Virus record (IMG/VR): IMGVR_UViG_3300037882_001453
Span: 1-40,599 of that record
Direction: 5' to 3' (one strand)
DNA from: a virus
Length of the DNA stretch: 40,599 nt
Shown: one piece after another, positions 1 to 40,357 of the stretch
Numbering within the stretch: position 1 is the stretch's first letter
How the letters are laid out: each line of letters opens with the position of its first letter
Program-made: the position numbers and the translations under genes
The notes under the pieces: generated by a model
The model's input: only the letters and a program-made list of their open reading frames with translations
The model's database searches: none
What the model was told of the DNA's origin: nothing

Positions 1-147
1 AGAATGGAGCAAGCAATTAAAGAATCCATTTGGACAGATAGTGAAGTTTTACAGGGTTTATTGGATGCGCCGGAGGCAAAGCTAACAATCCGTTTGGATT
101 TCCCAGATGGTTCATTCGCTACAATTGAAAGGGTACTAAATCTATGA
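1..147 (+). CDS. Small hypothetical protein, 3' part of a gene spanning the map ends
   Basis: The frame is open from the first base and stops at 145-147. The visible part is 48 residues and ends in a beta-like stretch (LTIRLDFPDG, FATIERV). If base 40599 is joined to base 1, the frame continues without interruption back to an ATG at 40534, giving about 70 residues that read coherently across the joint. An internal ATG at position 4 is an alternative start if the genome is linear. Its stop overlaps the next start (ATGA at 144-147), so the two are translationally coupled. No family is recognised. Confidence 0.6.
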   Translation, partial: RMEQAIKESIWTDSEVLQGLLDAPEAKLTIRLDFPDGSFATIERVLNL

Positions 148-314
148 TCCCTGTAGGAACTACCGTGCGAGTTACCCTTAAAGGTTCTTATTACGACGGG
201 AATATTGGTGTAGTTTACAAGTCTGACAAAGCAATGTCCTTCGTAGAAGTTAAGTTCCCTAAAGAAACCAAGCTAAAGACTTTCCATTACTCAGAACTGG
301 AGATTACCAAATGA
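144..314 (+). CDS. Small SH3/KOW-like protein (type B paralogue)
   Basis: This is a 56-residue protein that opens with VGTTVRVT and closes with ELEITK. It shares the pattern V-G-x-x-V-R-V, a central G-x-x-G-V-V, a V-E-V-x-F strand and a terminal E-L-E-[VI] with the proteins at 4553-4726 and 5264-5434. The strand-turn-strand layout with conserved glycines looks like a small SH3-type or KOW-type barrel, which often binds nucleic acid or RNA polymerase; that is an inference from pattern only. The start overlaps the previous stop by ATGA, and the stop overlaps the next ATG in the same way. Confidence 0.7.
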   Translation: MIPVGTTVRVTLKGSYYDGNIGVVYKSDKAMSFVEVKFPKETKLKTFHYSELEITK

Positions 315-820
315 GCTATGAGACAGAGGTTTTATCAGCCTTTCCTAAGAAACCTAATAATCTCTTAGCACTTGTAGAAACTCTACGTGTGAACACTGAG
401 TTTACTAATGCGACTGTCGCAGAAAAGATTACTAGGGCTGGATTAAGTCAGGCTGCTTATTACAGGGCTCTGACCCAATTAAAAACAGTAGGTGTCCTTA
501 CAGAGCACGGGGTTCCTAAGAAGAGCTTTAACATGCCAGACCATATTAGTAAAGGAGTTCTTCCACCTCAGGGATATAAGTATGTTCACTTGGCAGCTTA
601 TCTAAGTAGGTTTAAAGCAGGAGAAGACGTACCACCGTTCAATAAAACCGTTGAAGAGATTTGTAAGGAATTCGCAGGGAAGTTGATGGATAACCCGCTT
701 TTGGCGGCAGATGTAGTTTATGGAATTCAAGACAGGCTAGCGCAACTCGCACTAGCAACAAATGACCTTAGCCAATTTAGAAACATGATGGGGACTGTAA
801 GGCTCCCAGATGAATACTAA
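311..820 (+). CDS. Hypothetical early protein with possible N-terminal winged helix
   Basis: The protein has 169 residues. Residues 15-70 contain a run of helices followed by a short beta pair (AYYRALTQLKTVGVLTEHGV), which resembles a winged-helix DNA-binding fold. The rest is helical and slightly acidic. The start overlaps the stop of the upstream gene (ATGA at 311-314), so it belongs to the same early operon. A role in early gene control is plausible but unproven. Confidence 0.6.
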   Translation: MSYETEVLSAFPKKPNNLLALVETLRVNTEFTNATVAEKITRAGLSQAAYYRALTQLKTVGVLTEHGVPKKSFNMPDHISKGVLPPQGYKYVHLAAYLSRFKAGEDVPPFNKTVEEICKEFAGKLMDNPLLAADVVYGIQDRLAQLALATNDLSQFRNMMGTVRLPDEY

Positions 821-837
821 CCACTAGAACAGGAACG

Positions 838-1065
838 ATGACAATGGAACCAGTTAATGAGAATATGGTAAAAGCTTTGGTTGATGTTTTTAATAGCATC
901 CCAAGAGAAATGTTGAATGACATTATGGCACCAGCACTAGTTAATGATTTGGAGACGGGCGACGAAGAACACTTCTGGGAAATTGTTGATTTGTTTAGCC
1001 AGCCCGATAATAAGAATCCTTCTGCAATTATCCTACGAGAAGTTATTCGTAGGTTTAAGCATTAA
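838..1065 (+). CDS. Small acidic hypothetical protein
   Basis: This is a 75-residue, mostly helical, acidic protein ending in a basic patch (REVIRRFKH). A ribosome binding site (AGGAA at 831-835) sits just before ATG 838; a second ATG at 844 is possible. It is the last gene before the first promoter-bearing gap. No family is recognised. Confidence 0.6.
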   Translation: MTMEPVNENMVKALVDVFNSIPREMLNDIMAPALVNDLETGDEEHFWEIVDLFSQPDNKNPSAIILREVIRRFKH

Positions 1066-1088
1066 AAGTAATTAGCGTGTGCTAGCTT

Positions 1089-1118: not shown

Positions 1119-1144
1119 AACGTGTGTTCGGTACTTGACAGGTA

Positions 1145-2539: not shown

Positions 2540-4374
2540 GCGACGAACTAGAAATTTTGGGTGCTGAGATTCAACAGCTTCGATTTAAGTTGACTGTTGA
2601 ATCCGCCACCTGTAAAGATGTTGCAAGCCGTAAATTGGACGTGGATAAATACGTTCGTTCGGAAGAGCAGCGTTTACAGGATGAATATTTGCGTGCTGTA
2701 GAATTGGTACGCTCTAAGAGGCTGGAACTTGCACGACAAGTAGAAGAGCTTAATGCCTCTGTCAATAATCTTACAGATGAAATTGATCGTAAGAATGTGA
2801 AATACGCTAAATTGCTCCAAGCTCGTAATGAGGCGGATGCATATTCTAAGTTGGCAGATGAACTAGCCGAAATTTGCGTAGACTTTCCCGCTTATTTCAA
2901 GGCGCACACTTATCAGCATGACGATCTTTTGTTTATTGCTGACGCCTATAAGTCGGGCCGTAATGGCGTGCTTAATGCTAATGACATGGGTCTAGGAAAG
3001 ACCTATGAAAGCACGGTGTCTCTTTATTTCTTGCGAGAGATGTTCCAAGCACAATATGGTCGCAAACCCCGCATCCTTTGGCTTACTAAGAAAAGCCTTG
3101 TTTCAAGTTCCCCTAAGGAAATTCGGGAATGGTGGCCGGACGTTAAGGTAATTACTTCTGAAAAGAGTAATTCCCCCTCGGATCGTGAGTTCGATCTTAC
3201 CATTTATCTTTCAATTGGTGATATCTTTCTGTGCAACTACGAATTTATCCGCACAACTAAGAGAGCACAAGCAATTGATTGGGATTTGGTAGTTATCGAC
3301 GAAGTTCACAAGTTGAAAGGTGGAGCTAATCAATCTGGCCCTACTGCAATTTGGGAATCAATTAAGACTGTTTGCCAGAAAGCTAAGTTTACTCTTATGC
3401 TTTCAGGTACCCCAATGGTTAATCGTCCGCAAGAAATGTGGAGCTATTTGCACATCTTCTCCCCTGAGAAATTCCCAACTGTTCGTGACTTTGAGTCTAA
3501 GTTCATGGACCTTAAAGCAGTTGCTGGAGAAATGCAATTGGTTGTTTCACCTGAGCGAATTCTTAAGGGTGCGCTTAAGGGACAAATGATTCGTCGTCGC
3601 CGAGATGAGGTTGGTTTGCAATTGCCGGAACTGACTCGCATCTATAAGACTTTGCAAATGAATCCAGAGCAAGCAGCTTGCTACAAGCAAATGCGAGAGA
3701 ATTTCTTTGTGTGGCTTGATAGCGAGCGGGAAAAGCCTCTTACAGCTACTGCAATTATTGCACAGTTGACTAGGTTGCGCCAAATTAATGTGTGGCCTGC
3801 TGGAATTAAGTTGGTCAATCCTGAGACTAAGCAAGAGTCAATTCTTAACGTGGAAGATTCCTGTAAGATTGACGAAGCAATGGATATCATTGAAACTTCC
3901 AATGACCAGGTAGTTATTTTCTCTACCTTCAATGAGCCGATGGAAGAAATCAAAAAGCGTTGTGCTGTTAAGGGATTGACTTGCCAGATTATTTCTGGCG
4001 AAACTGTCGCACGTATGGGTGAGTATGAAAATGACTTCCAGCAAGGTAAGTTGGATGTTATTTGTATCAACTCAGCTATGGGTGAAGGACTTAACCTACA
4101 AAAGAATCCTTCAAGGTGGCCTGGTGGAAGTTCTACAGGTATTTTCCTTGATCTTTGGTGGAGTCCTGCAAGAAACGAACAATGCGAAGGCCGTGTTCAT
4201 CGGCAGGGTGCAAATCAAGCCGTAATGATTTACGTGCTTTCAAATGATGCTTCGATTGATGCGTTTATTGAAGGTAAGTTGATGGATAAGAAGCGAGTCT
4301 TTGACTCTATTATGGAATCGGATGCAATCCGTCCCGCTACTGAATGGCGAGACTTTCTTGAAGGAGTGTTGTAA
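2536..4374 (+). CDS. SNF2-family DEAD/DEAH-type ATPase
   Basis: The protein has 612 residues. Residues 1-110 are predicted coiled coil, rich in E, L, K and R. The helicase core follows: motif I with DMGLGKT near 150-156, motif II DEVHK near 253-257, a conserved SGTP (motif III) near 293, a C-terminal RecA lobe with SAMGEGLNLQ near 511-520, and motif VI with EGRVHRQG near 550-557. These are SNF2/HepA-type signatures, so it is likely a double-stranded DNA translocase that remodels protein-DNA complexes rather than a strand-separating helicase. Many phages carry such ATPases near replication genes. The coiled-coil N-terminus suggests oligomerisation or partner binding. Confidence 0.9.
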   Translation: MSDELEILGAEIQQLRFKLTVESATCKDVASRKLDVDKYVRSEEQRLQDEYLRAVELVRSKRLELARQVEELNASVNNLTDEIDRKNVKYAKLLQARNEADAYSKLADELAEICVDFPAYFKAHTYQHDDLLFIADAYKSGRNGVLNANDMGLGKTYESTVSLYFLREMFQAQYGRKPRILWLTKKSLVSSSPKEIREWWPDVKVITSEKSNSPSDREFDLTIYLSIGDIFLCNYEFIRTTKRAQAIDWDLVVIDEVHKLKGGANQSGPTAIWESIKTVCQKAKFTLMLSGTPMVNRPQEMWSYLHIFSPEKFPTVRDFESKFMDLKAVAGEMQLVVSPERILKGALKGQMIRRRRDEVGLQLPELTRIYKTLQMNPEQAACYKQMRENFFVWLDSEREKPLTATAIIAQLTRLRQINVWPAGIKLVNPETKQESILNVEDSCKIDEAMDIIETSNDQVVIFSTFNEPMEEIKKRCAVKGLTCQIISGETVARMGEYENDFQQGKLDVICINSAMGEGLNLQKNPSRWPGGSSTGIFLDLWWSPARNEQCEGRVHRQGANQAVMIYVLSNDASIDAFIEGKLMDKKRVFDSIMESDAIRPATEWRDFLEGVL

Positions 4375-4376
4375 AA

Positions 4377-5532: not shown

Positions 5533-5929
5533 TATTGAAGAGACGTTGGCGAGAGCTCATGCTTTGTTGCCAGCTAAAACTGTCAAGAAGTTAAACGCCC
5601 CTGTAAAAACCTCCACCCCGATTCCTAGGGTTAGTGATATTTACAGGGTGCTTGTGAGACGCACTCGGTGTTATCAGTGGCTCAGTAATTTAACTGAGAA
5701 AGAAAGTAACTCAGTAACACTTAAGCATTGGTATCCTGTAGATGTTTATAACACAGAGCCAAGAGTTATTGAGGTTTATCACAATCATCCATTTGGCACT
5801 GCTTGTGCAGCACCTAATCTTTGTTTCGATGAAACATTTAAACTTACAGGGGCAGAGAATCCCGATTTTGTTAGGGTGTACAACTTGATGATGGAAAAGA
5901 GGAATAGTGTCAGCGAAGAAGCATTGTAG
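5525..5929 (+). CDS. Hypothetical protein
   Basis: The 134-residue product starts at the ATG of GGATGACTAA that overlaps the micropeptide stop; an in-frame start nine codons upstream is also possible. It has a basic, proline-containing N-terminus and a His/Cys-containing centre (YHNHPFGTACAAPNLC). No known family is recognised. It is overlapped at its 3' end by a GTG-started zinc-ribbon gene. Confidence 0.6.
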   Translation: MTNIEETLARAHALLPAKTVKKLNAPVKTSTPIPRVSDIYRVLVRRTRCYQWLSNLTEKESNSVTLKHWYPVDVYNTEPRVIEVYHNHPFGTACAAPNLCFDETFKLTGAENPDFVRVYNLMMEKRNSVSEEAL

Positions 5930-6044: not shown

Positions 6045-6360
6045 TGATGCAATTATAGATTGGAGAAGTACGGGTCGCCGAAAAGCTAGAAGGGCTTTGT
6101 TTGAAAGTTTCACACCTTTTGCCTGTGCTGTTTGTGGTAAAACTTCAATCGAGCCACCAAAGGACGCGCCAAGTTGGTTTGAAGAAATTTGGCCAGAAGA
6201 GAATAGAGTATTGGCATATTCTTTACAGGCCGATCACTTGACAAAGAACCTACAGAACAATTCAGCAGAAGATTTGGAATGGAAATGTTCCCCTTGCCAT
6301 AAGGCGTCTGATAGTCTTACCGAAAAAGGTGAATCCACTATCGACAAGGGTCTATGGTAA
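6031..6360 (+). CDS. HNH endonuclease
   Basis: This 109-residue protein has a zinc pair CAVC near residues 32-35, a central QADHL with the first catalytic His near residue 70, an Asn in LQNN, and a second knuckle with WKCSPCHKA near 85-93 that gives the last His. This is the beta-beta-alpha metal motif of HNH nucleases. It may act in phage DNA processing or as a free-standing homing endonuclease. Its position at the end of the early operon, directly before a new promoter, does not decide between these. Confidence 0.75.
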   Translation: MTKNDDAIIDWRSTGRRKARRALFESFTPFACAVCGKTSIEPPKDAPSWFEEIWPEENRVLAYSLQADHLTKNLQNNSAEDLEWKCSPCHKASDSLTEKGESTIDKGLW

Positions 6361-7550: not shown

Positions 7551-7654
7551 TTTACAGGTGTTTTCACACGAGACTTAATTGCATCGAGGCAACGCTACGG
7601 CGACCGGTGAGCCTGTAAATAAGTACCGCACAGATACGTTAACCTCTATTTGTG
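7551..7654 (+). ncRNA. Structured RNA segment downstream of tRNA-Leu
   Basis: The octamer TTTACAGG (7551-7558) pairs perfectly with its inverted copy CCTGTAAA (7612-7619), enclosing a small TTGC/GCAA hairpin. A second stem CACAGATA/TATTTGTG (7629-7636 with 7647-7654) follows. No gene is evident. This segment links the tRNA to the tRNA-like fold at 7666. Confidence 0.45.
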
Positions 7655-9309: not shown

Positions 9310-9705
9310 ATGATTATTAACACTTCAAAGTTTGGTATAGAACCTGTAACAGATTTGGCAACAATTGATGTTCCCAACTTACAGGAGTATCGTAGAGCAA
9401 TCTTTGGTAGAAGTCCTAAACTAGATATGCTCGCTAAGGTATTGGTAGATAATCCAGGTAAATGGTTCACCTTTAGTGAGCCAGTTTATGGGCGATCTGC
9501 TAATAAGTTCTGTGAGTCAATCTATTCTAGGTTAGAGATGCTTACAGATAAACACGGCATTATTTTAGAATGGTGCCATCAATTACCCGAGTGGAATCAC
9601 TACCACTTGCCACCTAACTACTACCTATACGCCTTTAGGATCTTTGAGACACTGGCCGACGGTTCATTAGCCCCTATCCCCCCTGTAAACCCTACAACAC
9701 TATAG
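9310..9705 (+). CDS. Hypothetical protein directly behind tRNA-Lys
   Basis: The protein has 131 residues with a possible helix-turn-helix region (KLDMLAKVLVDNPGKWFTFSEP then a helix KFCESIYSRLEML) and a proline-rich C-terminus. The ATG sits at the third base after the tRNA; the G-rich 3' strand of the tRNA acceptor (GGGGGG at 9299-9304) could double as a ribosome binding site. DNA binding is a guess from the helical pattern. Confidence 0.65.
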   Translation: MIINTSKFGIEPVTDLATIDVPNLQEYRRAIFGRSPKLDMLAKVLVDNPGKWFTFSEPVYGRSANKFCESIYSRLEMLTDKHGIILEWCHQLPEWNHYHLPPNYYLYAFRIFETLADGSLAPIPPVNPTTL

Positions 9706-9715: not shown

Positions 9716-10288
9716 ATGAGAAAAGTATTTTGGAGTTTGGCTGCAACCCTTACAGTTACAGGTTTGTTTGCTCTAAACAAGAATGAAAATCAATCAGCCG
9801 TAGGTCATCATGCTGTTACAAAGACCGTTGTAAGTTGTCCAAACGGAGATACTTGGCAAACATCAATTGTCGTTTATCCAGATGCTGACAGACCCGAGTT
9901 TACTTGGTCTGTCCAAACGGATAATGTTTCATGGGGGCCGGATAAGGTAGCTATCTCATCTGAGCCTTTCGTTAAGACGGTAAACGTACCCAACACTAAA
10001 CTGAGTTACACTTTTACAGGTGTGGCTAAATGGTCTAATGGTGCATCAAATTCCTTCACAGATCAGGTATATAAGCGAGATAATTGTGGTGAGGAAACAA
10101 CTACTACATCAGTCTTGGAAACAACTACTACAACCACACCAATTGTAACAACCACTACTTCAACTGTTATTGATACAACCACAACTACGAGTGAACCTGT
10201 TGTAACTACAACTACGATTCCAGATACTACAACAACTTTTGAAATCAGCACTGTAACAAGTGAGAGAGTTCTTCCTAAAACTAATTAA
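9716..10288 (+). CDS. Secreted Thr-rich stalk protein with LPKTN end
   Basis: This 190-residue protein has an N-terminal hydrophobic segment (residues 5-20) after MRK, a beta-rich domain to about residue 125 with two cysteines (CPNGD, NCGE), and then a low-complexity tail of T, V, S and P from about 133 on. Thr-rich tails act as extended stalks on actinobacterial surfaces. The last residues, LPKTN, resemble a sortase LPxTG signal, but no membrane span follows. Good ribosome binding site AGAAGGAACC. Confidence 0.7.
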   Translation: MRKVFWSLAATLTVTGLFALNKNENQSAVGHHAVTKTVVSCPNGDTWQTSIVVYPDADRPEFTWSVQTDNVSWGPDKVAISSEPFVKTVNVPNTKLSYTFTGVAKWSNGASNSFTDQVYKRDNCGEETTTTSVLETTTTTTPIVTTTTSTVIDTTTTTSEPVVTTTTIPDTTTTFEISTVTSERVLPKTN

Positions 10289-11287: not shown

Positions 11288-11537
11288 TGCATTTACAATT
11301 AAGCCACCTTTTGATTCAGGGGTCTTTCTAAGAAAGTACGAAGATGAAGACGGTGAAATTAAGAATTGCATTGGTATTGCGTTTGCTACCGAAGAGGGCT
11401 TTAATTTTGCAGCAGAACTAGTAGATCATGAGTCATACACACCTGAACTATATGAAGAGCTTGTTAGAAAATGGACTGACTTTATGGCACTACTTCCAGG
11501 TAGTGAGGTAGTGCATGAACACTTCGATCAAGATTAG
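11265..11537 (+). CDS. Hypothetical acidic protein
   Basis: This 90-residue acidic protein has a beta-rich N-terminal half (FTIKPPFDSGVFLRKYEDEDG) and a helical C-terminal half. It overlaps the genes on both sides by about 23 bases, typical of this compact block. No family is recognised. Confidence 0.55.
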   Translation: MLFNTPFSAFTIKPPFDSGVFLRKYEDEDGEIKNCIGIAFATEEGFNFAAELVDHESYTPELYEELVRKWTDFMALLPGSEVVHEHFDQD

Positions 11538-12477
11538 TCCAAGTGGTTTAGGTCTATTCACTAAATGTAGAAGAGCTTATTGGTACACATACAATAGAGA
11601 ACTAGAAAAGAATGTACCTAAGGCAGCACATTTTGAAAAAGGTACCTATGCCCATTCTATTGGACATGAATACTATGCAGCTTTAGAAGCAGGCCTACAG
11701 CCGGGCAACCCTATTATGCTTAAGCGTTTGCAGAATAGGACAATGGCCGATTTAAAAGAAGCCATGTCTTTAGGTTCCCCATCTAAGACTCAAATGATTA
11801 GAGATGTGTCTGCTGTATTCCTAGAATACTTGAACAACTATTCATCAGATTCTGATAGAAACATAAAGGTGGAAGGTATTGAAAGATACCTAACACATGA
11901 TTTTGAAATAGATGGAGTTAAGTTTACGCTACACGGATATGCGGACTTGCTTTATCGAACCAAAGGTGGTACACTTGTTGTACGCGATTTGAAAACTGGT
12001 GAGAATAGCAGGGCATGGAGTGAGTACAAGGTAAAGATTAATGCTCAACTAATAATCTATCTTTACCTAGCAAGTAAGTTGTATCCTGAACAGCAAACCT
12101 TTAGAGGTGAAATCCTGTTCATGCTTACAAAATTCTTTAAGAACCCCACGCCACTAGACACTAGATTTAAACTACTGACTGTTTCGTACACACGAGACGA
12201 ATTAGAAACAGTGTTTAAAGAGTTGTCTAGTATCTTGGTAGAGGCAGCTACACTTACAGAAGAAAAAGCAGTAATGGCAATGGATAAAGACGCCTGCGCC
12301 GGATGCCAGTTTTCTGATTTGTGTGATGCCAAACTAAGAGGAAAGCCCGTTGAGCCTCTTATTAAAAACCTATATAGAAAACGAGAGAACTCAAATGGAA
12401 CTAAACCTGTCAAAACTGACGGAGAAAACGCCGGACAACAAGCACCGGAAGGTTTCACGTTGCGAATTAACTTTTGA
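11515..12477 (+). CDS. RecB/Cas4-type PD-(D/E)XK nuclease with Fe-S cluster
   Basis: The protein has 320 residues. Cys18 in FTKCRRAYW, together with three C-terminal cysteines in CAGCQFSDLC near residues 260-269, forms the four-Cys iron-sulfur site of Cas4/AddB-type nucleases. The nuclease core shows a His near the start of motif I, GYADLL (Asp near 143) and RDLKTG (Asp and Lys near 157-159), then a Q/Y motif (NAQLIIYLYL). It probably resects DNA ends during recombination with the ATPase and SSB-like protein encoded next to it. Confidence 0.88.
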   Translation: MNTSIKISPSGLGLFTKCRRAYWYTYNRELEKNVPKAAHFEKGTYAHSIGHEYYAALEAGLQPGNPIMLKRLQNRTMADLKEAMSLGSPSKTQMIRDVSAVFLEYLNNYSSDSDRNIKVEGIERYLTHDFEIDGVKFTLHGYADLLYRTKGGTLVVRDLKTGENSRAWSEYKVKINAQLIIYLYLASKLYPEQQTFRGEILFMLTKFFKNPTPLDTRFKLLTVSYTRDELETVFKELSSILVEAATLTEEKAVMAMDKDACAGCQFSDLCDAKLRGKPVEPLIKNLYRKRENSNGTKPVKTDGENAGQQAPEGFTLRINF

Positions 12478-12601
12478 TGATGGAACTACAATGGTCCTAG
12501 ATGCGGACGACAATCAAGGTCTTTATACATCTACAACGTACAAAGCCCCTAATTCATTACTAACTATCCACGAGGTATTCATTACACATGGGAATTCTTG
12601 A
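12395..12601 (+). CDS. Small beta-rich hypothetical protein
   Basis: This 68-residue protein is read from ATG 12395; an in-frame start 15 codons upstream lies deep inside the nuclease gene and is less likely. A basic stretch (NKHRKVSRC) precedes strands ELTFDDGTTMVLD. It overlaps the nuclease gene 3' end by 83 bases and the ATPase gene start by 14. Confidence 0.5.
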   Translation: MELNLSKLTEKTPDNKHRKVSRCELTFDDGTTMVLDADDNQGLYTSTTYKAPNSLLTIHEVFITHGNS

Positions 12602-13319
12602 TAAAGCTGTAGCCGCAGATGAAATCCCTAATTGGATGAAACTGCTTTTATATGGTCCACCAGGTGTTGGTAAAACTGAATTAGCTGCGTCTGCCCCTGA
12701 CCCTTTCTTTGTTGATATGGAAAGGTCTACGGAGACATTGCGTAATCACCCCACGCTTAATAAAACACCTGTGTTTAGACCAACCTGTATGGATGATATC
12801 TTTCAAGTAGTGAAAGAGTTTCCAGCTTCTAAGTTCCAAACACTTGTTTTGGATACAGGTACTAGAATGCAGTTCTTCCAGCTTAGGGAAAAGATGGTGG
12901 AGGTTACAAAGAATGGTACTAGTGGTAGAGATATTTATCTACCTCTGTTTCAGGAGTATAGAATCTCTGCTGAAATGCTAGATCACATCTTTGTTCTTTT
13001 ACAGGCAATGGAAAAGCATGTTATCATTGTGGCACACGAAAGAATCGTCACTAAGAAAATGCCTGACGGTTCTGAAACCCATGTTGCTACTTTGCCGGAG
13101 TTTACACCGGCCGTTGCTTCCAAGATTAACGGATTGCTTAATGCAACTTTCCATCTTTCTGTAAAGAATAGTCCCATTGTTGGCAAGGGGCCTTCCAGAA
13201 TTCTGACGGTAAATCCATCAGGAAAGATCGTAGCCAAGAACCGGCTGCGAATTCAAGAAACCACAATTGAGAATCCGAATCTTCGGGAAATTTTCAAACT
13301 AACAGAAAAGGGTAAATAA
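12588..13319 (+). CDS. RecA-like phage ATPase, Sak4-type
   Basis: This 243-residue P-loop ATPase has Walker A GPPGVGKTE at about residues 23-31 and Walker B TLVLDTG near 85-91. Size, motif spacing and position beside a RecB-type nuclease and an SSB-like protein fit the phage RecA-like ATPases related to Sak4, which support single-strand annealing recombination. A core ATPase role is certain; the Sak4 assignment is inference. Confidence 0.8.
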   Translation: MGILDKAVAADEIPNWMKLLLYGPPGVGKTELAASAPDPFFVDMERSTETLRNHPTLNKTPVFRPTCMDDIFQVVKEFPASKFQTLVLDTGTRMQFFQLREKMVEVTKNGTSGRDIYLPLFQEYRISAEMLDHIFVLLQAMEKHVIIVAHERIVTKKMPDGSETHVATLPEFTPAVASKINGLLNATFHLSVKNSPIVGKGPSRILTVNPSGKIVAKNRLRIQETTIENPNLREIFKLTEKGK

Positions 13320-26154: not shown

Positions 26155-27805
26155 CTTGATGATTTCTCTCTGTTTCGTTACCCATCATATGTACAGACTT
26201 AAGTTTAATATAGGGGTTTTCTACAGTGCTTGGTGACCAAGCTCCACCGGTTTCTGGAATGTCTAAAGTAAACTTAAAAGCAACTCTTCTGTTAAACTGA
26301 GGCATAGGCATCTTAACGAAGTTATTTCTATCATCGTTGACGCCGCTTACAGGGGTGGTAGAAAGAAAAGTTGATGTACCTACAATATTACCATCAACAT
26401 AATGAGTGTAATAAACACCTGCACCTTTTAAATACACATCGAGATAACCATATAACCATCTCTTTAAAGTACTGAATGGTTTAGAGTGCCACTTAGTAAA
26501 CACAGAAACAGTTTTAGGTCTATTAGAAGTATCTGGACTGTAATGACTGAGCCCCAAGAAGTTACTGTTAGACCCTTCTTCTCTGTGAATATATGCAATA
26601 ACTGATCTAGGTTTATCAGGCGAATTATGAGTAAACAAAGGACCAGCGGCACCTACAACAGAAATAAATGTGTCCTCACCAAATTCCTTTTCAGGAGTTA
26701 GAATTAGTTGAGACCAGGTTTTACCATTATTGTAATATACCTTAGTATTAGAAGCAGCAAACGTCCATAGTCCACCACTGCTAAAGAACTTCGTGACCAC
26801 AAGAATGAATCCGTTTTCAAATGGGAAAACAGCAGCCGAGTTATAGGTTGCAAACAGATCAGAGATCGGATAATCAATTTTGGTAGACCCGTTCTCACTG
26901 AAAGCATAAATAGCGGTTCTGTCAGTAACGATCAAAGAGTTCTGAGTTAAACAAACACCAAATTCACCGGAAGCTCTAATTTGATCAGTCATGAATTGCA
27001 AAGACCAGTTAGTAGGATCACCGTTAGGATAGAAAACATATACCCCAGCCTGAGTAAACAAGTACACCTTGTTATTTACAGGCACTGCTGTAACTAAAGG
27101 ACCACCGCCACGAGAAGAGGGCATTTCAATAACATTAGTAGTGGACCAAACTTCTGGATAACCACCAACAGAAGCTAAATCTGTGAAGTAGATTTTATTA
27201 CCTGCAAGAGCAAATAACCTATCTCCGTAGGTGAAAATCTTAGTCACTCCAGAAATAGTAAACAACAAAGTGGTTGTTAAGTTAGGCGGAGAAAAGGAAG
27301 CTGTGTTGAAATCACTAACTCTGTAAATTTCTGTCTTGGCTTGATTACAGGCGTAGTAACGATCTCTGTAGCTAGTCATGTCTAAGATTCTACGAGAAAC
27401 CACATCTAAGCCTTGTTCCATTCCCTCATTAAAGGAACCTCTGCCCGAAGCCGTACTCCAAACTCTTTGTCCTGTAGGAACAGTGTTTCTACAAATAACT
27501 AGGGTAGGGGTTGTCTGGTTCGCCGTAGGTGGATAAAACCTAAATAACTTAACTGTTTGGGCATTTAAATAATCAGGGGGACGACCAGTGTTAACGCCGC
27601 CATCACTAATAGGTAGTCCAGCATCTGCTACTGCCATGTTGGTTAAACATGGAACAAAATCACCTCGATCTTTTAAATGACCCAGGTCATCAACTTCCAT
27701 GTTAATCAACTCTTGAGAAAACCCATCTGGAATAGCATCGGGAGTGTCTGAAAGATACAGACCTTTATCAAAAGTAATTACAGCTGTGTTTTCTCCATAA
27801 ATCAT
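26141..27805 (-). CDS. Tail nozzle/stabilisation-type protein
   Basis: This 554-residue beta-rich protein starts with YGENTAVITFDKGL and DGFSQELINMEVDDLGHLKDRGDF, the opening of podovirus tail-tube B or P22 gp10-like proteins, and carries repeated strands compatible with a beta-propeller. Position after the connector gene fits the distal tail. The start overlaps the connector stop by 4 bases. Confidence 0.7.
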   Translation of the reverse strand: MIYGENTAVITFDKGLYLSDTPDAIPDGFSQELINMEVDDLGHLKDRGDFVPCLTNMAVADAGLPISDGGVNTGRPPDYLNAQTVKLFRFYPPTANQTTPTLVICRNTVPTGQRVWSTASGRGSFNEGMEQGLDVVSRRILDMTSYRDRYYACNQAKTEIYRVSDFNTASFSPPNLTTTLLFTISGVTKIFTYGDRLFALAGNKIYFTDLASVGGYPEVWSTTNVIEMPSSRGGGPLVTAVPVNNKVYLFTQAGVYVFYPNGDPTNWSLQFMTDQIRASGEFGVCLTQNSLIVTDRTAIYAFSENGSTKIDYPISDLFATYNSAAVFPFENGFILVVTKFFSSGGLWTFAASNTKVYYNNGKTWSQLILTPEKEFGEDTFISVVGAAGPLFTHNSPDKPRSVIAYIHREEGSNSNFLGLSHYSPDTSNRPKTVSVFTKWHSKPFSTLKRWLYGYLDVYLKGAGVYYTHYVDGNIVGTSTFLSTTPVSGVNDDRNNFVKMPMPQFNRRVAFKFTLDIPETGGAWSPSTVENPYIKLKSVHMMGNETERNHQDGSN

Positions 27806-28929: not shown

Positions 28930-29309
28930 TATACTTTTCTCTTCTTTCTAGATCGAGTAAAACCAAGAGCAGAACCTGTTCCCGGTATATCAATAGAGAC
29001 ACCTCTGTTTAAAACAGAAACAGTGTGCCTAGTTAAAACAACACTAACACCAACGATAACATTTACAGGTCTGTTTGTAACAATTATATTATTAACAGTG
29101 ATGGGATAAATTCCAGTAACTTGAATAGCCGGGGTTCTATTTGAAACCACAAACACAGTTAAGGATAGATTGACGTTTACAGGCCCCGAACCTGGCTGAC
29201 CGAAATAAAAATCCCTTAAGGCGGCTCTTAATCCGGTTTGTTCAAAACCAAGTGTGGAATTAATAGGACCAAATAGACCTGTAGAAAAACCATTTCCCGA
29301 AGCAGGCAT
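28929..29309 (-). CDS. Short beta-repeat virion protein
   Basis: This 126-residue protein contains about three units of the strand repeat found in the 373-residue protein upstream (for example VVLTRHTVSVLNRGVSI) and ends in a basic GFTRSRKKRKV tail much like that protein's FKTRKKRRQ. It appears to be a shortened paralogue that keeps the C-terminal repeats and tail. Confidence 0.6.
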   Translation of the reverse strand: MPASGNGFSTGLFGPINSTLGFEQTGLRAALRDFYFGQPGSGPVNVNLSLTVFVVSNRTPAIQVTGIYPITVNNIIVTNRPVNVIVGVSVVLTRHTVSVLNRGVSIDIPGTGSALGFTRSRKKRKV

Positions 29310-30119: not shown

Positions 30120-31240
30120 TATTGACGTCTTTTCTTTCTAGTCTTAAAAACAGAAGCGGGGACACTTGTTCCAGGGATAAAAACAGAAGCAAATCTATTA
30201 ACAACCGTAACCGTGTGTCGGGTGAGATTAACCGTAGCACCGATAGAAATACTTACAGCACGATTAGTTACTGTAATTACTTTCAAGGCTAAGTTTGCAG
30301 GAATAGTAACTGCTCTGTTTGTAACTGCAATAGTGTGTCTTACGAGATTAACGGAGGCCCCATAAGAAACAGAGACAGCTCTGTTTGTTACAACCATTTC
30401 TTTAAGTGTTAACAAAGGAGATGCACCTGTTTGTACAGTTACAGCTCTGTTTACTACAGCAATAGTCTGTCTAACAAGATTGACCGCTGCACCTAAAGAA
30501 ACCGACGTAGTGAAATTAGTTACAACAATAGTTTGTCTAGTCAGGTTAACATTAGTAGGAGATGACCCAACATCTACAGTTGGAGCACGATTAGTGACCG
30601 CAACCGTATGCCTAGTTAAGTTAACATTTACAGGGGAGGAAGCCGTAGGCTGTAAAGCAATTCTGATACCAATGTACGAATCACCCGTAGCATGGGTTAC
30701 TGCTAAAGTACCAGTAGCTCCTGCTGTAGCTTTTGTTTCAGAATAACAAGCTACGCCGCCGCCATCATAGTTATCAATCTCATTACCGGAAGGAGAACTA
30801 AATCCGTTGTTGTAACCAGTCAAAAAACTTAAAATGATGGCATTATCTACAGTAGTAGTAACACCAGTAACCGCCGTAGGTGTTCCAGCGGAACCTACTC
30901 CCGTGCCTAAGACCTCAGAATCCACACCTGAGAAAGTAATGATTCCCGCATCTAAGTAGTTTGTACTGTCCCAAATTACATCTACAGATGTTCCTCCTTC
31001 GGAACCCGTAGCCACTCTTCTAAACAGACAACCATTAATAGGGTCGCCCGCTAAATAATTGAAGTTTGTAAGAAGGGTGAAACCTGAGGCGGTAGCTGTG
31101 GTAGAACTAGAGTTGTAATTAACTGCCCAGAGATATATATAGTCCCCGGCTACCGTTCCAGTAGGTTTTGTAACCGTAATAGTGGTTCCAGAACTTACAG
31201 GCCCGTAACCGGAAGCAATTCCTCTTCTTGCTACGGCCAT
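30119..31240 (-). CDS. Virion protein with N-terminal jelly-roll-like domain and tandem beta repeats
   Basis: The 373-residue protein has about 198 residues of beta sandwich, then about seven tandem units of roughly 23-25 residues with consensus NLxRHTVxVTNRAVxVxxGA, and a basic tail (FKTRKKRRQ). Repeats of paired strands usually stack into a prism or solenoid. The conserved N-R pair in VTNRAV probably builds the turn. The copy number and the common tail with the 28929-29309 protein suggest expansion by unequal recombination. Likely a capsid fibre or decoration protein. Confidence 0.65.
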   Translation of the reverse strand: MAVARRGIASGYGPVSSGTTITVTKPTGTVAGDYIYLWAVNYNSSSTTATASGFTLLTNFNYLAGDPINGCLFRRVATGSEGGTSVDVIWDSTNYLDAGIITFSGVDSEVLGTGVGSAGTPTAVTGVTTTVDNAIILSFLTGYNNGFSSPSGNEIDNYDGGGVACYSETKATAGATGTLAVTHATGDSYIGIRIALQPTASSPVNVNLTRHTVAVTNRAPTVDVGSSPTNVNLTRQTIVVTNFTTSVSLGAAVNLVRQTIAVVNRAVTVQTGASPLLTLKEMVVTNRAVSVSYGASVNLVRHTIAVTNRAVTIPANLALKVITVTNRAVSISIGATVNLTRHTVTVVNRFASVFIPGTSVPASVFKTRKKRRQ

Positions 31241-34321: not shown

Positions 34322-36248
34322 TTAAAATTCCTTCCTGCAATTTAGCTTGCTGATGTAAAGTGAAGTGAAGCAAAATTGCTTCTTTGATAACTGGCTCCAA
34401 GAACTCATACTCTTGGCTTACCATAAACTTACGGTGTTCAGTGATATGAACATCTGTATTATCCCACGGATTAATTGGGTGAGTTTGATATTGTGGCTCA
34501 CCAGTTTGTGGGTCTAATTGAGGAACGTCCATCATCATAGGAACACCAGTTACAGGATTGGGCATCTCCTGCTTAGTCATAATAGGTTGGGGAACCTGCA
34601 TTGACATTTTGCGGTTTTCTCTTTGAGCAGCTTTTGCATCCATCTGAATCTCATCCCACAATTGGTTTGTTTCAGACATTTCAAGATACTTCATACCCTG
34701 CTCAGGTGTAATGATACCCAGCTTAATCCATTCAGTTAAGAATGCCTGTCTGGCAGCCTTACTTCTTGGAGCCATTGATCCAGCTTCAATACGAAGATCA
34801 GTGTTGCCTTTAATATCAGCAGATTTAAACTGTACTGCTTCAAAAGCGCTGTTCTTAGAAACAACAGCAACTAACTTCTCTTCGTCCCAAAACTCTTGAA
34901 CCAATTGAAGTAACTGACGACCCAAATCACCAACAGACTGCTCAATAGAAGCAACTGTAAGATGAAGCTTTGAATCGTTTTCCTCTTGAAGATAAGCAAT
35001 GGCAGAAGCAGCTTCAATACCAGGAGGGGTTCTACCTTTTGAAATTTCATTTTGAGAAGCCACCTCGTCAATATCTCTTGCAATTAAATCTACTTCTGCA
35101 ATAGCCATTGGGTTAGGGGGTGATTGTTCTAATAAGCGTGGCGGATCGAAACCTGGGTTTACAGGAATCATTAAACCAGGCTTACTACTAATCTTAGTAG
35201 GATCAATTGCGCCCTTAGTATAGGTAAGCATAGGCTTACCCATTCTATTTTTTGCTTCTACCATTTGAGAGCGAGTTCTATTATACTCCATTTGCAATGG
35301 AATTAACTCGTCCACAATTGAAGTAGAATAGAAGCCACCAGTAGGAATGTGGTCCTGTTTTACAAAAGGAAACTCACCATGTTCATATGGGAAATCAGCT
35401 TCACTGAAACCGTTTTCATTTTTGATGTTTGGAAGGCCACCTTCCTCCTGTAAAGCCCTGTAGACGTAGCTAACGTTCCCATTAGCTAAGACAAGCATAG
35501 CGCCTCTGGGGTAGTTCTTACAGGGTTTAACCCACACCTCAATGACATAGATCATTCCACTTGAGCTAGAATAACTGTCTCTAATGTTAAGAGAGTGTAG
35601 AAATTTCAATTCAAGGTTAGAATCTGAGCCACCGGCTGATTCAGGTACATCAACACCATAAGTCTCTTTAAACTTGTCCCTAGAAATACCTCTACCATGC
35701 ATAACATAAGGTTGAGCCTGAATATCTTGCTCATCTAAATTAGGAACAAAAATATGGAACGGAGATGGTGCGGCTAAGTTAAGGTCATACTCTTCGCCAC
35801 TGATGGTTGCCTTCATAAAAGCAACTCCACAAATACTTAACCAAAAAGCAGCCTGTCGCCGCTTATGATTGAACTTGAGGGAATCCATTAAATGTTCAGC
35901 AATAACTTCCGCAACTCTAGCAGATGAAATATCAGCAGGTTCAGGTGTATTAGGCCTAACAAAGAACTGAGGCTCTGCGCTAGTAAACTTAGAAATTTCA
36001 GTTCTAACAATAGGCTTAACCTTATTACAGACAAGTCTAACCCTGTGAGAAGGTGCTGCGGGCTCTACTAGTCTTTGGCTAGACAAAGGCTTATTTTGTG
36101 GAAGCCAAACAGAATACTGCTTACCATTAAAGAAGGCCAAGTTAATATGCCATTGTCTTTCAAAAGGCTCTCTAAGTGCTTTACACTTGGCGAACTCTCT
36201 CATCCAATAAGCAACTTCTTTGTCTTTAAGCATTTCCTCAGACATCAA
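34263..36248 (-). CDS. Portal protein
   Basis: The 661-residue protein has an N-terminal helix with WHINLAFFNGKQYSVW near 32-47, a central NRTRSQMVEAKNR helix near 310-322 and a SAIAYLQEENDSKL region near 415-428 that matches the stem helix of podovirus portals. Size and place between terminase and scaffold agree. It forms the dodecameric DNA entry ring. Confidence 0.85.
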   Translation of the reverse strand: MMSEEMLKDKEVAYWMREFAKCKALREPFERQWHINLAFFNGKQYSVWLPQNKPLSSQRLVEPAAPSHRVRLVCNKVKPIVRTEISKFTSAEPQFFVRPNTPEPADISSARVAEVIAEHLMDSLKFNHKRRQAAFWLSICGVAFMKATISGEEYDLNLAAPSPFHIFVPNLDEQDIQAQPYVMHGRGISRDKFKETYGVDVPESAGGSDSNLELKFLHSLNIRDSYSSSSGMIYVIEVWVKPCKNYPRGAMLVLANGNVSYVYRALQEEGGLPNIKNENGFSEADFPYEHGEFPFVKQDHIPTGGFYSTSIVDELIPLQMEYNRTRSQMVEAKNRMGKPMLTYTKGAIDPTKISSKPGLMIPVNPGFDPPRLLEQSPPNPMAIAEVDLIARDIDEVASQNEISKGRTPPGIEAASAIAYLQEENDSKLHLTVASIEQSVGDLGRQLLQLVQEFWDEEKLVAVVSKNSAFEAVQFKSADIKGNTDLRIEAGSMAPRSKAARQAFLTEWIKLGIITPEQGMKYLEMSETNQLWDEIQMDAKAAQRENRKMSMQVPQPIMTKQEMPNPVTGVPMMMDVPQLDPQTGEPQYQTHPINPWDNTDVHITEHRKFMVSQEYEFLEPVIKEAILLHFTLHQQAKLQEGILNGGPAGNSGASAEGNSFAG

Positions 36249-36519: not shown

Positions 36520-36868
36520 TCTCTTTCAGGGAAGCCTTGTACTTATCAACAATAAACTGTAAATCCACACCAAATTCTTTACAGGCCTCAAAAATTAATT
36601 CAGCCTCAGAAATAACTCTAGACGCCTCATCAGAGGTATCATTAAAACCATCCACAACAGCATCGACAGTTTCTTTTGAGACAAACTCTCCATGTGTAGC
36701 GTTAACCATGTTACCAAAACATGAATCACAGCAGTAAATAGTGCCACCGAAATCCAAATCTACGCCAGTATCCATATACCATTTTCTACCTGAATTATTA
36801 CTGGCACCACACCAATAACAGGTTCCAGGAGGAAGTGTTGGAAACTCATTTAATTGAGGGACTCTCAT
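36365..36868 (-). CDS. Zinc-ribbon protein next to terminase
   Basis: This 167-residue protein has CYWCG near residues 17-21 and CCDSC near 46-50, a zinc-ribbon pair, followed by a helical stretch and then a Thr/Glu/Gly-rich, probably disordered, last 45 residues. It begins right at the terminase stop. A packaging or assembly accessory role is plausible. The disordered tail is the part that overlaps the next gene. Confidence 0.6.
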   Translation of the reverse strand: MRVPQLNEFPTLPPGTCYWCGASNNSGRKWYMDTGVDLDFGGTIYCCDSCFGNMVNATHGEFVSKETVDAVVDGFNDTSDEASRVISEAELIFEACKEFGVDLQFIVDKYKASLKESENGTGTAGTLIISGISETPTETERDTAGDGEDATLSPLVLFDGFSVPGIK

Positions 36869-38377
36869 TTACCATTCCGATCCTAAATAGGAGTTGGCAG
36901 ATTCGCCAACCTCATCTCCATATGTGGTAACTCTATCCATGTACTTTTCTGAGTTAATTGCAAGAGGTGCGTTTAAGACGTTACCAATTCTTAAATCCTC
37001 TTCTCCAGCAAAGCTAGGTGTGGAACAAATACCATACCTAAGTGCGTCCATTGCGTGGTCGTTTTTCTTTACAGGGGTTTCCTTCAAGTTATGTCGTTCT
37101 GCTGTTTTACTGTTGGTATACTTATCCCAACGATATCTGTTCAATTCCCATTTAAGAAATGTGCAGTTATTGCAGAAGAATAACATGTTCTGGCTTAACC
37201 GTGTAGAAACTCTCTGAATACCTGTAGCCACGCTGTTATTACCAGGGCTTAAATACAGACCCTCTTTACCATACTCAGCTAATGGAGAAGTTCCTGTAAT
37301 GGCCTCTCTCTGACTCATAGCTGGATCACAAATAATCCATTCCAATTTATCAGTGAGCTTCAATTGTTCAATCAGTGCTAGAATGTCTCTAGCATTTTCT
37401 TTAACAAGCTTCTGTACGTGATAATACTCTTCATAGATAATAACTTGGCCTTCTGGCATAATACAACCAAGAAGGAATGCCGTAGCACCACGAAAACCGT
37501 GGTCAAGCATACCGAAGTGTTTACCCTGCTCGTAATAAAGTGGCCATCTATCTGAATGAATAATAGATGGAATCCAAGTATTAGGCTGAATGAAATCCTT
37601 ATATACCAAACCACCACCGGACATATAAGTACCGTGTTGTCTAGCGGCCTTTTCTTGAGAACTAAGACCAATAGTGAGCACTTCAAGTTCGGTGGCAGAG
37701 ATATGCTTGTTTTGTAGTGTACTAACTTCAAAACAAGCAATATTTGGATTAGTACCGTCTTTAGCCGGTAAATAAAGTCTATCTTCCGTCCAAGACATAT
37801 CAAACAAAGGTGTCATGGTTACCCACCACGATCCAGCTGCATCAACTAATCGCATCATGTTTTCATTGAAAATATCTTCCGGTGGTTCTTCGTCGAACCA
37901 CACGAAATCACGACTAGTACCGGAGAACTTATCTACGTCTTGATCGTAAGACATAAACTCAATGAATGAACCATTAGTTAATGTTAACGTTCTTGTACCT
38001 TTGGAGTAGGACTCCTCCCAGCTTCCATTCTTTAATAAACTGGGAGGAGTCCATCTCGCAATTTCCGGCATAACAACTTTCTCGATACCTTGAGGAAAGT
38101 CAACTGCAATTGCCCTACCTTTAATTGGAGGCCGTTTAGAATAAGTAGGGTGAGTTCCTGATAATCTCATAACGGATTCCGCACCACCTGCTACAGTTTT
38201 ACCTGATCTGTTACCACCAATAATTAACCGACCTTGTGCCGGACTTTCATGGAAAGCAATTTGGTAATCCTGTGGTTTGTAGCCAGAAATGGTAGGTCTT
38301 ACAGCCGTTCTTCTTAGGGCTTCTTGAATTTGTGCCTGAATGTCTTGTACAGGTATTGGTTTAGCTACTTTACCCAT
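36869..38377 (-). CDS. terL: Terminase large subunit
   Basis: The 502-residue protein has Walker A GGNRSGKT near 54-61 and Walker B with acidic FVWFDEEPP near 157-165 in the ATPase half. The nuclease half has GMLDHGF with Asp near 287, an ICDPA motif near 351-355 and HAMDALRYG near 441-449, the RNase H-like metal ligands. It cuts and drives DNA into the capsid with the small subunit encoded at 39740-40357. Confidence 0.95.
   Translation of the reverse strand: MGKVAKPIPVQDIQAQIQEALRRTAVRPTISGYKPQDYQIAFHESPAQGRLIIGGNRSGKTVAGGAESVMRLSGTHPTYSKRPPIKGRAIAVDFPQGIEKVVMPEIARWTPPSLLKNGSWEESYSKGTRTLTLTNGSFIEFMSYDQDVDKFSGTSRDFVWFDEEPPEDIFNENMMRLVDAAGSWWVTMTPLFDMSWTEDRLYLPAKDGTNPNIACFEVSTLQNKHISATELEVLTIGLSSQEKAARQHGTYMSGGGLVYKDFIQPNTWIPSIIHSDRWPLYYEQGKHFGMLDHGFRGATAFLLGCIMPEGQVIIYEEYYHVQKLVKENARDILALIEQLKLTDKLEWIICDPAMSQREAITGTSPLAEYGKEGLYLSPGNNSVATGIQRVSTRLSQNMLFFCNNCTFLKWELNRYRWDKYTNSKTAERHNLKETPVKKNDHAMDALRYGICSTPSFAGEEDLRIGNVLNAPLAINSEKYMDRVTTYGDEVGESANSYLGSEW
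38009..38052 (-). repeat. 13-bp perfect inverted repeat inside the terminase gene
   Basis: GGACTCCTCCCAG (38009-38021) is the exact reverse complement of 38040-38052, with an 18-base AT-rich loop. It lies in the first quarter of the terminase message. No T run follows. It may be an RNA hairpin or a DNA site. Confidence 0.5.
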
Positions 38378-38631
38378 TTGCTATCTCTTGAGTAACCAAG
38401 AAACTTCCCAGCTAAGCTAGACCACTTGGGAGAGGTGGCTAAAAGCTCAACTGCTCTAAACACAGCGTAATAAAGAGAACTTAAAACCAATGTAACGACA
38501 GTAACTAACCAAGTCCTATCAATCGAGGTGATATTGTTATTGATAAGCCATGTACCAATAGCTCCAACGATAGGAGGTACTAAGCTCGTTCTAATAAATG
38601 AGATGCCAAGTTCTTTTACAGCCGGACTCAT
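38365..38631 (-). CDS. Two-span membrane protein, probable holin
   Basis: The 88-residue protein has two hydrophobic segments, about 16-30 (SLVPPIVGAIGTWLI) and 40-58 (WLVTVVTLVLSSLYYAVF), separated by a short polar turn, and a basic end. This is the size and layout of class II-type holins in actinobacterial phages. It is encoded next to the endolysin and another membrane protein, with overlapping ends. Confidence 0.65.
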   Translation of the reverse strand: MSPAVKELGISFIRTSLVPPIVGAIGTWLINNNITSIDRTWLVTVVTLVLSSLYYAVFRAVELLATSPKWSSLAGKFLGYSRDSKWVK

Positions 38632-38927
38632 TTCTTCTCCTTCTCTCTTAGTAAGTGCATAGTAATTTCGTGAACCGCTGTATGGAGTGTGTCTAAATTG
38701 GACGAAATTGCTTTCTTGTCCGCATGATCCTTTTCAATGAACACATCAAAGCGAGTACTCAGTGACTTTAGGATATCTCCGTTGTTATCAATTTTGTTTA
38801 CGGTAGAACCATGCTCCGCCGAATTTTGCGCCTTTGTCTTCTGTACCATGACAGAAAGGATGCCCAAAATTAAAGTTACAGCAGAGCCGATAATACCTAA
38901 AGTCCAGGTTTCGGCGTTTGCTAACAC
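38628..38927 (-). CDS. Single-span membrane protein with coiled C-terminus, lysis cassette
   Basis: The 99-residue protein has one N-terminal span (LGIIGSAVTLILGILSVMV, about 9-27), a polar linker and a helical, charged C-terminal half ending REKEKK. Proteins of this layout (DUF2746-like) accompany endolysins in actinobacterial phages and may act as a second holin or regulator of lysis. Confidence 0.6.
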   Translation of the reverse strand: MLANAETWTLGIIGSAVTLILGILSVMVQKTKAQNSAEHGSTVNKIDNNGDILKSLSTRFDVFIEKDHADKKAISSNLDTLHTAVHEITMHLLREKEKK

Positions 38928-38936
38928 TTTAATCCT

Positions 38937-39743
38937 TTACAGGTTGCTAAGGATTTCCTGGAACTTAGCTAAACCTTCTGCTGTCTTAGGTCCGTAAATA
39001 CCATCCACCGTGTACGGATACAGATTAGCATCCTTGAGCATTTGCTGGAAACTTGCAACAGCCGCTTGAGTCTTGGGGCCATAAACACCGTCCGCAGGAC
39101 TTTGGTTGAAACCAAAGAAAATGAGGATGTTTTGCAAATCAAAAACAGCACTGTTCCTGTTACCAATAGTTAACGTTGGTGCGGGATTATTAAACACCAC
39201 AGGATTAGGGTTGTAATCAGCAGAAAGGCTGCCATTATCCACCAGTTTCTGTAAGGCTTCGCCGGGGCAAGCTGTTGCTCTAATTTGTCTGTGACCAACT
39301 ACTTCAGTACCATTAGGGTACAAGTACAAACTGCAAGCTCTTGCAAACTTGATACCTTCAATCATGGCCTTAGTAATCTTGTCATCTACTCCAACAAGAA
39401 CTAAAATTGAAACGTATCTTCTGTTCATCATTGGATCAGAAGCAGAGTTTGCTCCACCTCTGTTAATCAAACCTCTACAAACAACAACCTCACCCGTCGG
39501 TGTGACAGCCAGGTTATACATAATGTCCGAGATTCTCTTAACGTCCATGTCGTGCGACATAACAGACCGGAGCAAATCAAATGGGTCGTTATTAGCGGTA
39601 GTTTTCATACCGGTGTAGTGAATTGCCACACCCTTAACTTCGGACGCTACGAAATTGGGCAAACCGTCTACTTCGTCATCTAAGTCTACTTTTTCATTTC
39701 TCGGAATGCGGCTCGTCCAATCCGCTCGGTTAACTACCTTCAT
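38937..39743 (-). CDS. Endolysin: N-acetylmuramoyl-L-alanine amidase with peptidoglycan-binding repeats
   Basis: The 268-residue protein has an Amidase_2 domain with zinc ligands His near 42 (AIHYTG), His near 150 in GHRQIRATACPG and Cys near 158. Two PG_binding_1 repeats follow, one with DGVYGPKTQAAVASFQQML near 217-236 and another with DGIYGPKTAEGLAKFQ near 246-261. It cleaves the amide bond between muramic acid and the stem peptide at the end of infection. No signal peptide is seen, so a holin is needed. Confidence 0.93.
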   Translation of the reverse strand: MKVVNRADWTSRIPRNEKVDLDDEVDGLPNFVASEVKGVAIHYTGMKTTANNDPFDLLRSVMSHDMDVKRISDIMYNLAVTPTGEVVVCRGLINRGGANSASDPMMNRRYVSILVLVGVDDKITKAMIEGIKFARACSLYLYPNGTEVVGHRQIRATACPGEALQKLVDNGSLSADYNPNPVVFNNPAPTLTIGNRNSAVFDLQNILIFFGFNQSPADGVYGPKTQAAVASFQQMLKDANLYPYTVDGIYGPKTAEGLAKFQEILSNL

Positions 39744-40357
39744 GCGTTTAACTCCTTCAAAATAGTGACTGAATCAAGTTCATCAGCCAGCTCGGCTAAA
39801 ATTACAGGGGATACTTTAGATGCTAGAAATTCCATCATCTTAGCAATTACAAGCCCAAGGTTAACTTGTGTTTCCTGGTTAGGTCGGTAAACACCAGTCA
39901 TCTCGTGAACGTGTTTAATTGAAGCCAAGTCCCCTGCTTCAACGTTTCTCGCTAGGCTAGTCTTGGCACTCAGTAATACTGTGCCGAAACTTTCATCCAG
40001 CATTTGCTGGTAGTATTCTCTGTATTTAGGAATTCTGAGGAAACCTTGCCACTGCTGCGTTGTCAAATTCGCGTCCTTGAGTTTTACAGGGGTTGTTCTT
40101 TTATCTCCTGTAACAGTCATCAAGTTGCAAGCTAGTACAAATTCAGCTGGAAACTCATCTTCATCAAAGACAAGCTCAAAAGGAGGTAAACCCCGTTTTT
40201 CTAAGGCCAAGGAAATATCAGTTAAAAGATTTTCTAACTCTTCTGAAGAAAGCTCGAATTTTTCCAGTAGTACGTGCTTCTCAGGGTACTTACCTGTAAG
40301 CATTTGACTTGTCTCACAAAAAGTGAGAACTCTTGTTCGTGTGTCGCTAAAAGCCAT
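39740..40357 (-). CDS. terS: Terminase small subunit
   Basis: The 205-residue helical protein has a helix-rich N-terminal half (SSEELENLLTDISLALEK), a central WQGFLRIPKYREYYQQMLDES, and a KTSLARNVEAGDLASIKHVHEMTGVY region that matches the oligomerisation core of small terminases. It is the first gene of the leftward arm, separated from terL by the lysis genes, an uncommon order. It would recognise the packaging site, possibly in the adjacent control region. Confidence 0.65.
   Translation of the reverse strand: MAFSDTRTRVLTFCETSQMLTGKYPEKHVLLEKFELSSEELENLLTDISLALEKRGLPPFELVFDEDEFPAEFVLACNLMTVTGDKRTTPVKLKDANLTTQQWQGFLRIPKYREYYQQMLDESFGTVLLSAKTSLARNVEAGDLASIKHVHEMTGVYRPNQETQVNLGLVIAKMMEFLASKVSPVILAELADELDSVTILKELNA

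Follow-up and report, generated by a model that had tools for sequence, protein, structure and literature searches.

A dispersed word that varies between phage lineages is the probable start site of a RepB'-type primase-helicase

The window analysed here is the whole of IMG/VR virus record IMGVR_UViG_3300037882_001453 (40,599 bases, 40.6 kb, organized in two divergent arms), and our subject is the octamer TTTACAGG, spelled CCTGTAAA on the opposite strand, which recurs throughout it, together with the primase-helicase that probably reads it. The nearest named relative is MW202795, an uncultured phage from Manatee Spring, with 73% nucleotide identity over 76% of the query (the comparison used the 34.3-40.6 kb stretch), and remote relatives are Arthrobacter Jasminevirus, Cellulosimicrobium phage DS1 and Microbacterium phage Shocker. 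The replication module encodes a PD-(D/E)XK nuclease, a Sak4-like annealase, an SSB-like protein, a primase-helicase and a family A polymerase, and the features that matter here are:

11515..12477, plus strand, PD-(D/E)XK (RecB/Cas4-like) exonuclease (PF12705, E 1e-24), excluded as reader of the word
12588..13319, plus strand, Sak4-like annealase (phrog_124, E 1e-33), excluded as reader
13859..15511, plus strand, RepB'-like primase fused to a RepA-like hexameric helicase, 550 amino acids, the proposed reader
13859..14755, plus strand, its N-terminal catalytic domain of the archaeo-eukaryotic primase (AEP) type with a helix bundle, residues 1-299
15447..17096, plus strand, family A DNA polymerase (PF00476, E 3e-48), excluded as reader

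The 550-residue protein matches phrog_3123 (E 1.5e-63). In profile searches against PDB its C-terminal part had RSF1010 RepA as the best match (1g8y, E 4e-13) and its N-terminal part matched RSF1010 RepB' (3h20, E 9e-6). Foldseek related the AlphaFold2 model of residues 1-299 (pLDDT 91) to RepB' (3h20, E 5e-10), to the S-2L PrimPol (6zp9, E 9e-9) and to the RepB'-ssiA complex (3h25, E 3e-7), and beyond RepB' and the S-2L PrimPol catalytic domain there was no match at E < 0.001. Five helices at 200-288 of the model form a helix bundle C-terminal to the catalytic domain. D85 and D138 are invariant in 40 sequences and could correspond to the acidic residues D77/D78/D134 of RepB', and residue 83 is E in the window and D in distant relatives. 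From its fold and helix bundle the N domain is predicted to be a RepB'-type AEP.

The octamer occurs 35 times in the window, 22 times on the plus and 13 times on the minus strand:

48..55, plus, TTTACAGG
2609..2616, minus, octamer
2673..2680, plus, octamer
5600..5607, minus, octamer
5640..5647, plus, octamer
6222..6229, plus, octamer, aligns with CCTACAGG of MW202795
7551..7558, plus, octamer
7612..7619, minus, octamer
9682..9689, minus, octamer
10013..10020, plus, octamer
12998..13005, plus, octamer
13341..13348, plus, octamer
13922..13929, minus, octamer
14260..14267, plus, octamer
14912..14919, minus, octamer
16091..16098, plus, octamer
18037..18044, plus, octamer
18457..18464, plus, octamer
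18764..18771, minus, octamer, aligns with CCTACAGG of MW202795
19830..19837, minus, octamer
21549..21556, plus, octamer
21855..21862, minus, octamer
23101..23108, minus, octamer
23652..23659, minus, octamer
25370..25377, minus, octamer
27075..27082, plus, octamer
29062..29069, plus, octamer
29176..29183, plus, octamer
30627..30634, plus, octamer
35158..35165, plus, octamer
35447..35454, minus, octamer
36578..36585, plus, octamer
37068..37075, plus, octamer
38936..38943, plus, octamer
40083..40090, plus, octamer
460, 5219, 5844, 8558, 9134, 9379, 9756, 14699, 22636, 26347, 27345, 31195, 34550, 35518 and 39802, plus, further TTACAGG outside octamers
3860, 9343, 14339, 15609, 18419, 21175, 22353, 29421, 29555, 30066, 32046, 37293, 40107 and 40293, minus-strand copies (CCTGTAA) outside octamers

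A third-order Markov model, applied to both strands, predicts 3.7 octamers, and no octamer scores higher. The top heptamer is TTACAGG, with 64 copies against 12.4 expected, and CCCTGTAAA was found 14 times against 0.7 expected. A preliminary description of the sequence had already seen at least 34 octamers (22 and 12), where about 2 were expected from composition, and had found TTACAGG to be commoner still, and both observations are borne out. As common codons are spelled by TTACAG/CTGTAA, the word might be an artefact of codon usage, amino-acid content or host composition. However, only 5.9 copies (standard deviation 2.1) were obtained after shuffling synonymous codons within genes and 4.8 after drawing from pooled codons, with a maximum of 13 over 300 shuffles, so neither the Markov model nor the shuffles reached the 20 copies above which the preliminary description would have considered the word explained. 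Since the spelling also varies between close relatives and between phages of one host, an artefact, refuted by the shuffling, is hardly credible. Inside genes lie 59 of the 64 TTACAGG copies (31 sense and 28 antisense, in every frame), noncoding DNA has copies too, and one copy is in the tRNA-Arg gene; the spread over frames, strands and noncoding DNA that was noted at first sight is thus real. Beyond (C)CTGTAA(A) the information content drops away. The plus-strand surplus of the octamer exists as a count (22:13) and has no significance, the corresponding bias in relatives being one of strand composition. The enrichment of the word is real and independent of codon use.

It had also been proposed that highly expressed genes avoid the word. 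The capsid gene and open reading frame 6471 of the window are both free of it; the capsid gene is at 32363-33574 and not at 6471. Furthermore, 12 words were counted in the capsid genes of 11 related phages where 23 would be expected (p=0.008), a shortage behind which there is presumably a codon constraint.

A count in related phages, already suggested in the preliminary description, revealed the same enrichment there in lineage-specific spellings, the versions being CTGTAGG, CTGTGGG, CTGTCG, GTGTGG and GTGTGC. MW202795 has just 5 copies of TTTACAGG but 28 of CCTACAGG (1.9 expected), and 98 of the 6-mer CTGTAG (40 expected). CTGTGGG is the version of Jasmine, Casserole and Adat (CTGTGG 101 vs 30 in Jasmine), CTGTCGC that of DS1 (CTGTCG 116 vs 41), and CTGTAGG or CTGTGGC those of IMG/VR relatives. 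GTGTGG is enriched in Gordonia phages Cozz and Cleo, Serratia phage Serbin and Pseudomonas phage Lebethron (62-90 vs 23-25) and in Mycobacterium phage Muddy (71 vs 25), GTGTGGCC in Microbacterium phage Eleri (40 vs 3.4), and GTGTGC in Arthrobacter phage Gorgeous (95 vs 29). Read on one strand, all the words consist of [C/G]TGT and lineage-specific bases, 5'-[C/G]TGT-NN(N), and share the form [C/G]T-GT-N, with a GTG core in the GTGTGG, GTGTGC and CTGTGG lineages and GTA or GTC elsewhere, the core being extended by one to three bases.

In Shocker (L092, MW507126) the likely primase word is CTGTCG, which ranks seventh, is evenly spaced and is shared with DS1, its neighbour on the tree, whereas CTGTAAAGG, considered for the same role, was dropped for its uneven spacing. 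This first-ranked CTGTAAAGG/CCTTTACAG word (8-mer CTGTAAAG, 45 copies vs 1.8 expected) is dispersed, though unevenly, and is probably a different element. Shocker also has 15 clustered copies of TACCCTAA (0.04 expected), some just upstream of possible start codons (examples at 522, 538, 680, 721, 879, 1915, 1927 and 3570 on the plus strand, and 23431..44342 on the minus strand), which resembles an element of a promoter or operator.

All the examined full-length relatives that encode the primase domain, Shocker excepted, have [CG]TGTNN in first to third place among all 6-mers, and structurally unrelated phages with Gordonia, Mycobacterium, Microbacterium, Serratia and Pseudomonas as hosts are among the carriers. 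When IMG/VR was searched with the primase alignment, and loci of at least 10 kb were counted (window and named phages included), [CG]TGTNN was within the top five 6-mers at 49 of the 69 loci with a RepB'-like domain. It was in the top five at none of 14 further loci of this length with a PrimPol, most of which have Sak4, exonuclease and PolA and about half of which are one genus. GreenHearts and Sucha, which share their hosts with Jasmine and Eleri, respectively, have a PrimPol instead of the RepB'-like primase and lack the word, while they keep the nuclease, Sak4 or a RecA-like protein, the polymerase and an SNF2 helicase. PurZ-like (2-aminoadenine) genes accompany the PrimPol in both phages (L186 and L187). 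Because a module with another primase has no word, we exclude Sak4, exonuclease and polymerase as readers. No such word was found in Kabluna, Ranch or Diane, the last of which has the RepA-like helicase part only, and Gorgeous, where the N domain is joined to another helicase domain, still has it. Among records chosen by their terminase, all 5 with a clear word encode the primase domain, which the remaining 15 do not, but for one weak partial match. The word changes 9 times on the N-domain tree, compared with a mean of 25 after shuffling. STP9, a partial genome with 74 copies of GTGTGG against 21 expected, ends near the position of the primase gene in its relative Lebethron. Close relatives with 65% identical primases differ in word; when the window is compared with MW202795, divergence is greatest in the helix bundle (57% identity, 64% in the helicase and 71% in the catalytic domain), which fits the shift from GTAG in MW202795 to GTAA in the window. 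The site accompanies the primase and not the other genes of the module.

These data bear on several functions that could be proposed for such a word. A Chi-like site, controlling a phage or host recombination nuclease (the RecB/Cas4-type nuclease with Sak4), would agree with the octamer scale, with the scatter on both strands through coding DNA and with the presence of nuclease and annealase genes, always linked to the primase. However, PrimPol phages that share the nuclease, annealase and polymerase have no such word, GTGTGG reappears in unrelated hosts, the GTG core and even spacing suit priming better, and Jasmine, Gorgeous and GreenHearts, which have one host, carry CTGTGG, GTGTGC and nothing, respectively. 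As Jasmine and Gorgeous share their host and differ in word, the word is not set by the host, and this speaks equally against restriction escape or a host Chi. Two of the functions first proposed, a Chi-like signal and packaging, thus lose ground to the phages in which nuclease, annealase, polymerase and SNF2 helicase occur beside another primase and the word is missing, and we consider a Chi-like site improbable. Single-strand nick sites, of which T5 and Pseudomonas phage tf are examples, can also be dispersed consensus words, and a DNA-modification site would be a related possibility; yet the word follows the primase domain and no nickase or methylase, and after correction for composition it is equally frequent on the two strands, which makes this explanation very unlikely indeed.

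The distance between words on the same strand in the relatives is about 0.7-2.3 kb. Its spacing exceeds chance evenness in most relatives. In Jasmine, Casserole, Cozz, Cleo, Muddy and Gorgeous no other of the 1,072-1,338 6-mers on the structural-gene strand is spaced as evenly as the word, and for the relatives taken together, whose independence is incomplete, Fisher's combined p for evenness is about 1e-17. Such spacing would suit start sites of Okazaki fragments. The excess on the structural-gene strand in relatives vanishes against a strand-specific expectation, enrichment being alike on both strands, and strand bias was consequently ruled out as a sign of fork direction. At the 29 octamers of the window that can be aligned with MW202795, 2 are CCTACAGG and 4 others retain TACAG; over all its copies TACAG has a conservation of 19%, the same as for any 5-mer, so positional conservation does not exceed background between these two genomes. 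Because the sites are not conserved in place, it is density and not position that is maintained.

Dispersed repressor or silencer sites (like the stoperators of mycobacteriophage L5), or sites for a nucleoid or packaging organiser protein, are likewise asymmetric, numerous and variable between lineages, and Lsr2-like genes are present in Jasminevirus. Nevertheless, the words are mainly intragenic, in both orientations and all frames, and not intergenic and oriented with transcription; their positions turn over freely among relatives, and they track the primase and not a regulator, so that there is little to recommend this explanation. TTTACA was also tried as a promoter -35 box and rejected, as a -10 element follows in 4/35 cases against 14% in the control. 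An TTGACAATAG-type repeat of Rhodococcus phage Jester (L103), present about 16-20 times (its 8-mers reach 20 where 0.6 are expected), is promoter- or operator-like, and other strongly over-represented words were seen in viral contigs L179 (ATTTCGC, 18 copies) and L047 (AGTACGG, 14 vs 1.0).

Taken together, the enrichment, its independence of codon use, the existence of a word family, its association with the primase domain and the even spacing in relatives are directly supported, and they make it very probable that the phage's own RepB'-type primase-helicase recognizes the word and initiates on it. A primase start site had been among the four candidates of the preliminary description, and it is the one that we retain, Chi-like, packaging and restriction-escape functions being disfavoured. 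The primase would move with the fork helicase along the lagging-strand template and read 5'-(C)CT-GTAA(A)-3', with GTAA bound by its helix bundle and the primer started opposite the two bases immediately 5' of GTAA, first T and then C, so that it would begin with A-G. In general, the site would combine GT N.., which is recognized, with two invariant start bases (T, then C or G), and primers are predicted to be pppA-pG or pppA-pC. As the word is too long to recur often enough by chance, selection would hold about one copy per kb per strand where coding sequence permits, and drift in primase specificity would carry the word set of the whole genome along. The GTG start of known AEP primases supports a priming site: RepB' initiates at GTG within ssiA (PMC4434180), pRN1 ORF904 forms its first dinucleotide on the two template bases that flank GTG on the 5' side (PMC8076596), and the NrS-1 polymerase starts at GTGG/GTGA (PMC8718748).

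Several observations weigh against a primase start signal. Practically every carrier of the primase also has Sak4, exonuclease and PolA, and carriers without one of them were sought and none found in this tightly linked module; the exclusion of these proteins therefore depends on the PrimPol phages, about half of them one genus. The word might conceivably have a Chi-like function for some co-inherited protein. The distant primase loci L156, L158, L159, L166 and L179 have no clear word, and CTGTGC is in excess in Jester and L027 (unevenly spaced in Jester), neither of which has the primase domain. Finally, regular spacing was not significant in the window and MW202795, which show the same tendency, nor in DS1, Serbin and Lebethron.

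No description of such a word, of its enrichment or of its lineage drift was found in the open-licence literature, where both phenomena appear undescribed, in agreement with the preliminary description, to whose author no such site was known for this type of phage. A Microbacterium phage study that includes Eleri and lists repeated motifs does not appear to report the word (PMC7302621). It is conceivable, though rather doubtful, that each lineage has a private priming code, in which primase specificity and dozens of sites co-evolve and the genome is copied efficiently by its own primase only. If so, the code would keep co-infecting phages apart at the level of replication and slow down gene exchange. 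If the word is a primase start site, primase specificity and priming density could be read from sequence for hundreds of uncultured phages. Primase recognition would then exert selection on entire genomes, and would be a case of a recognition word that changes although many sites must change too. The GTG, GTA and GTC cores would offer a natural series in which to study DNA recognition by AEP helix bundles, and Okazaki start points would be predicted for phages in culture, among them Jasmine, Muddy and Gorgeous.

Among known systems, T7 gp4 resembles the window protein as a primase fused to a replicative helicase that starts at a short word, with pppAC as primer, and differs from it in being of the DnaG/TOPRIM type, with a zinc-finger reader and a 3-nt core. 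Chi sites of RecBCD/AddAB are over-represented words of octamer scale set by a host enzyme; unlike them, the phage word would be set by a phage gene and differs among phages of one host, and as Jasmine, Gorgeous and GreenHearts do not share it, it does not appear to be a host-shared signal of the Chi type. The NrS-1 primase-polymerase (TTTGGTTA, GTGG/GTGA) is also a phage AEP with a sequence-specific start and a helix bundle, although it belongs to another AEP branch and neither dispersed, evenly spaced enrichment nor lineage drift is reported for it (PMC8718748). pRN1 ORF904 shares the AEP catalytic domain with a helix bundle, and the formation of its dinucleotide on the two bases directly 5' of GTG (PMC8076596) matches the fixed [C/G]T before GT of the phage words; it is nevertheless from an archaeal plasmid, with a 3-nt site and no genome-wide enrichment described, whereas the phage words vary by lineage from the third base. 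RSF1010 (RepB', ssiA/ssiB, RepA) has the same primase fold, helicase family and sequence-specific start at a GTG-containing site (PMC4434180). Nevertheless, it uses two 40-nt hairpin sites in all, with separate RepA and RepB' and a leading-strand mode, while the window has dozens of 6-8-nt words on both strands, without conserved flanks such as a hairpin would need, and a single fused protein.

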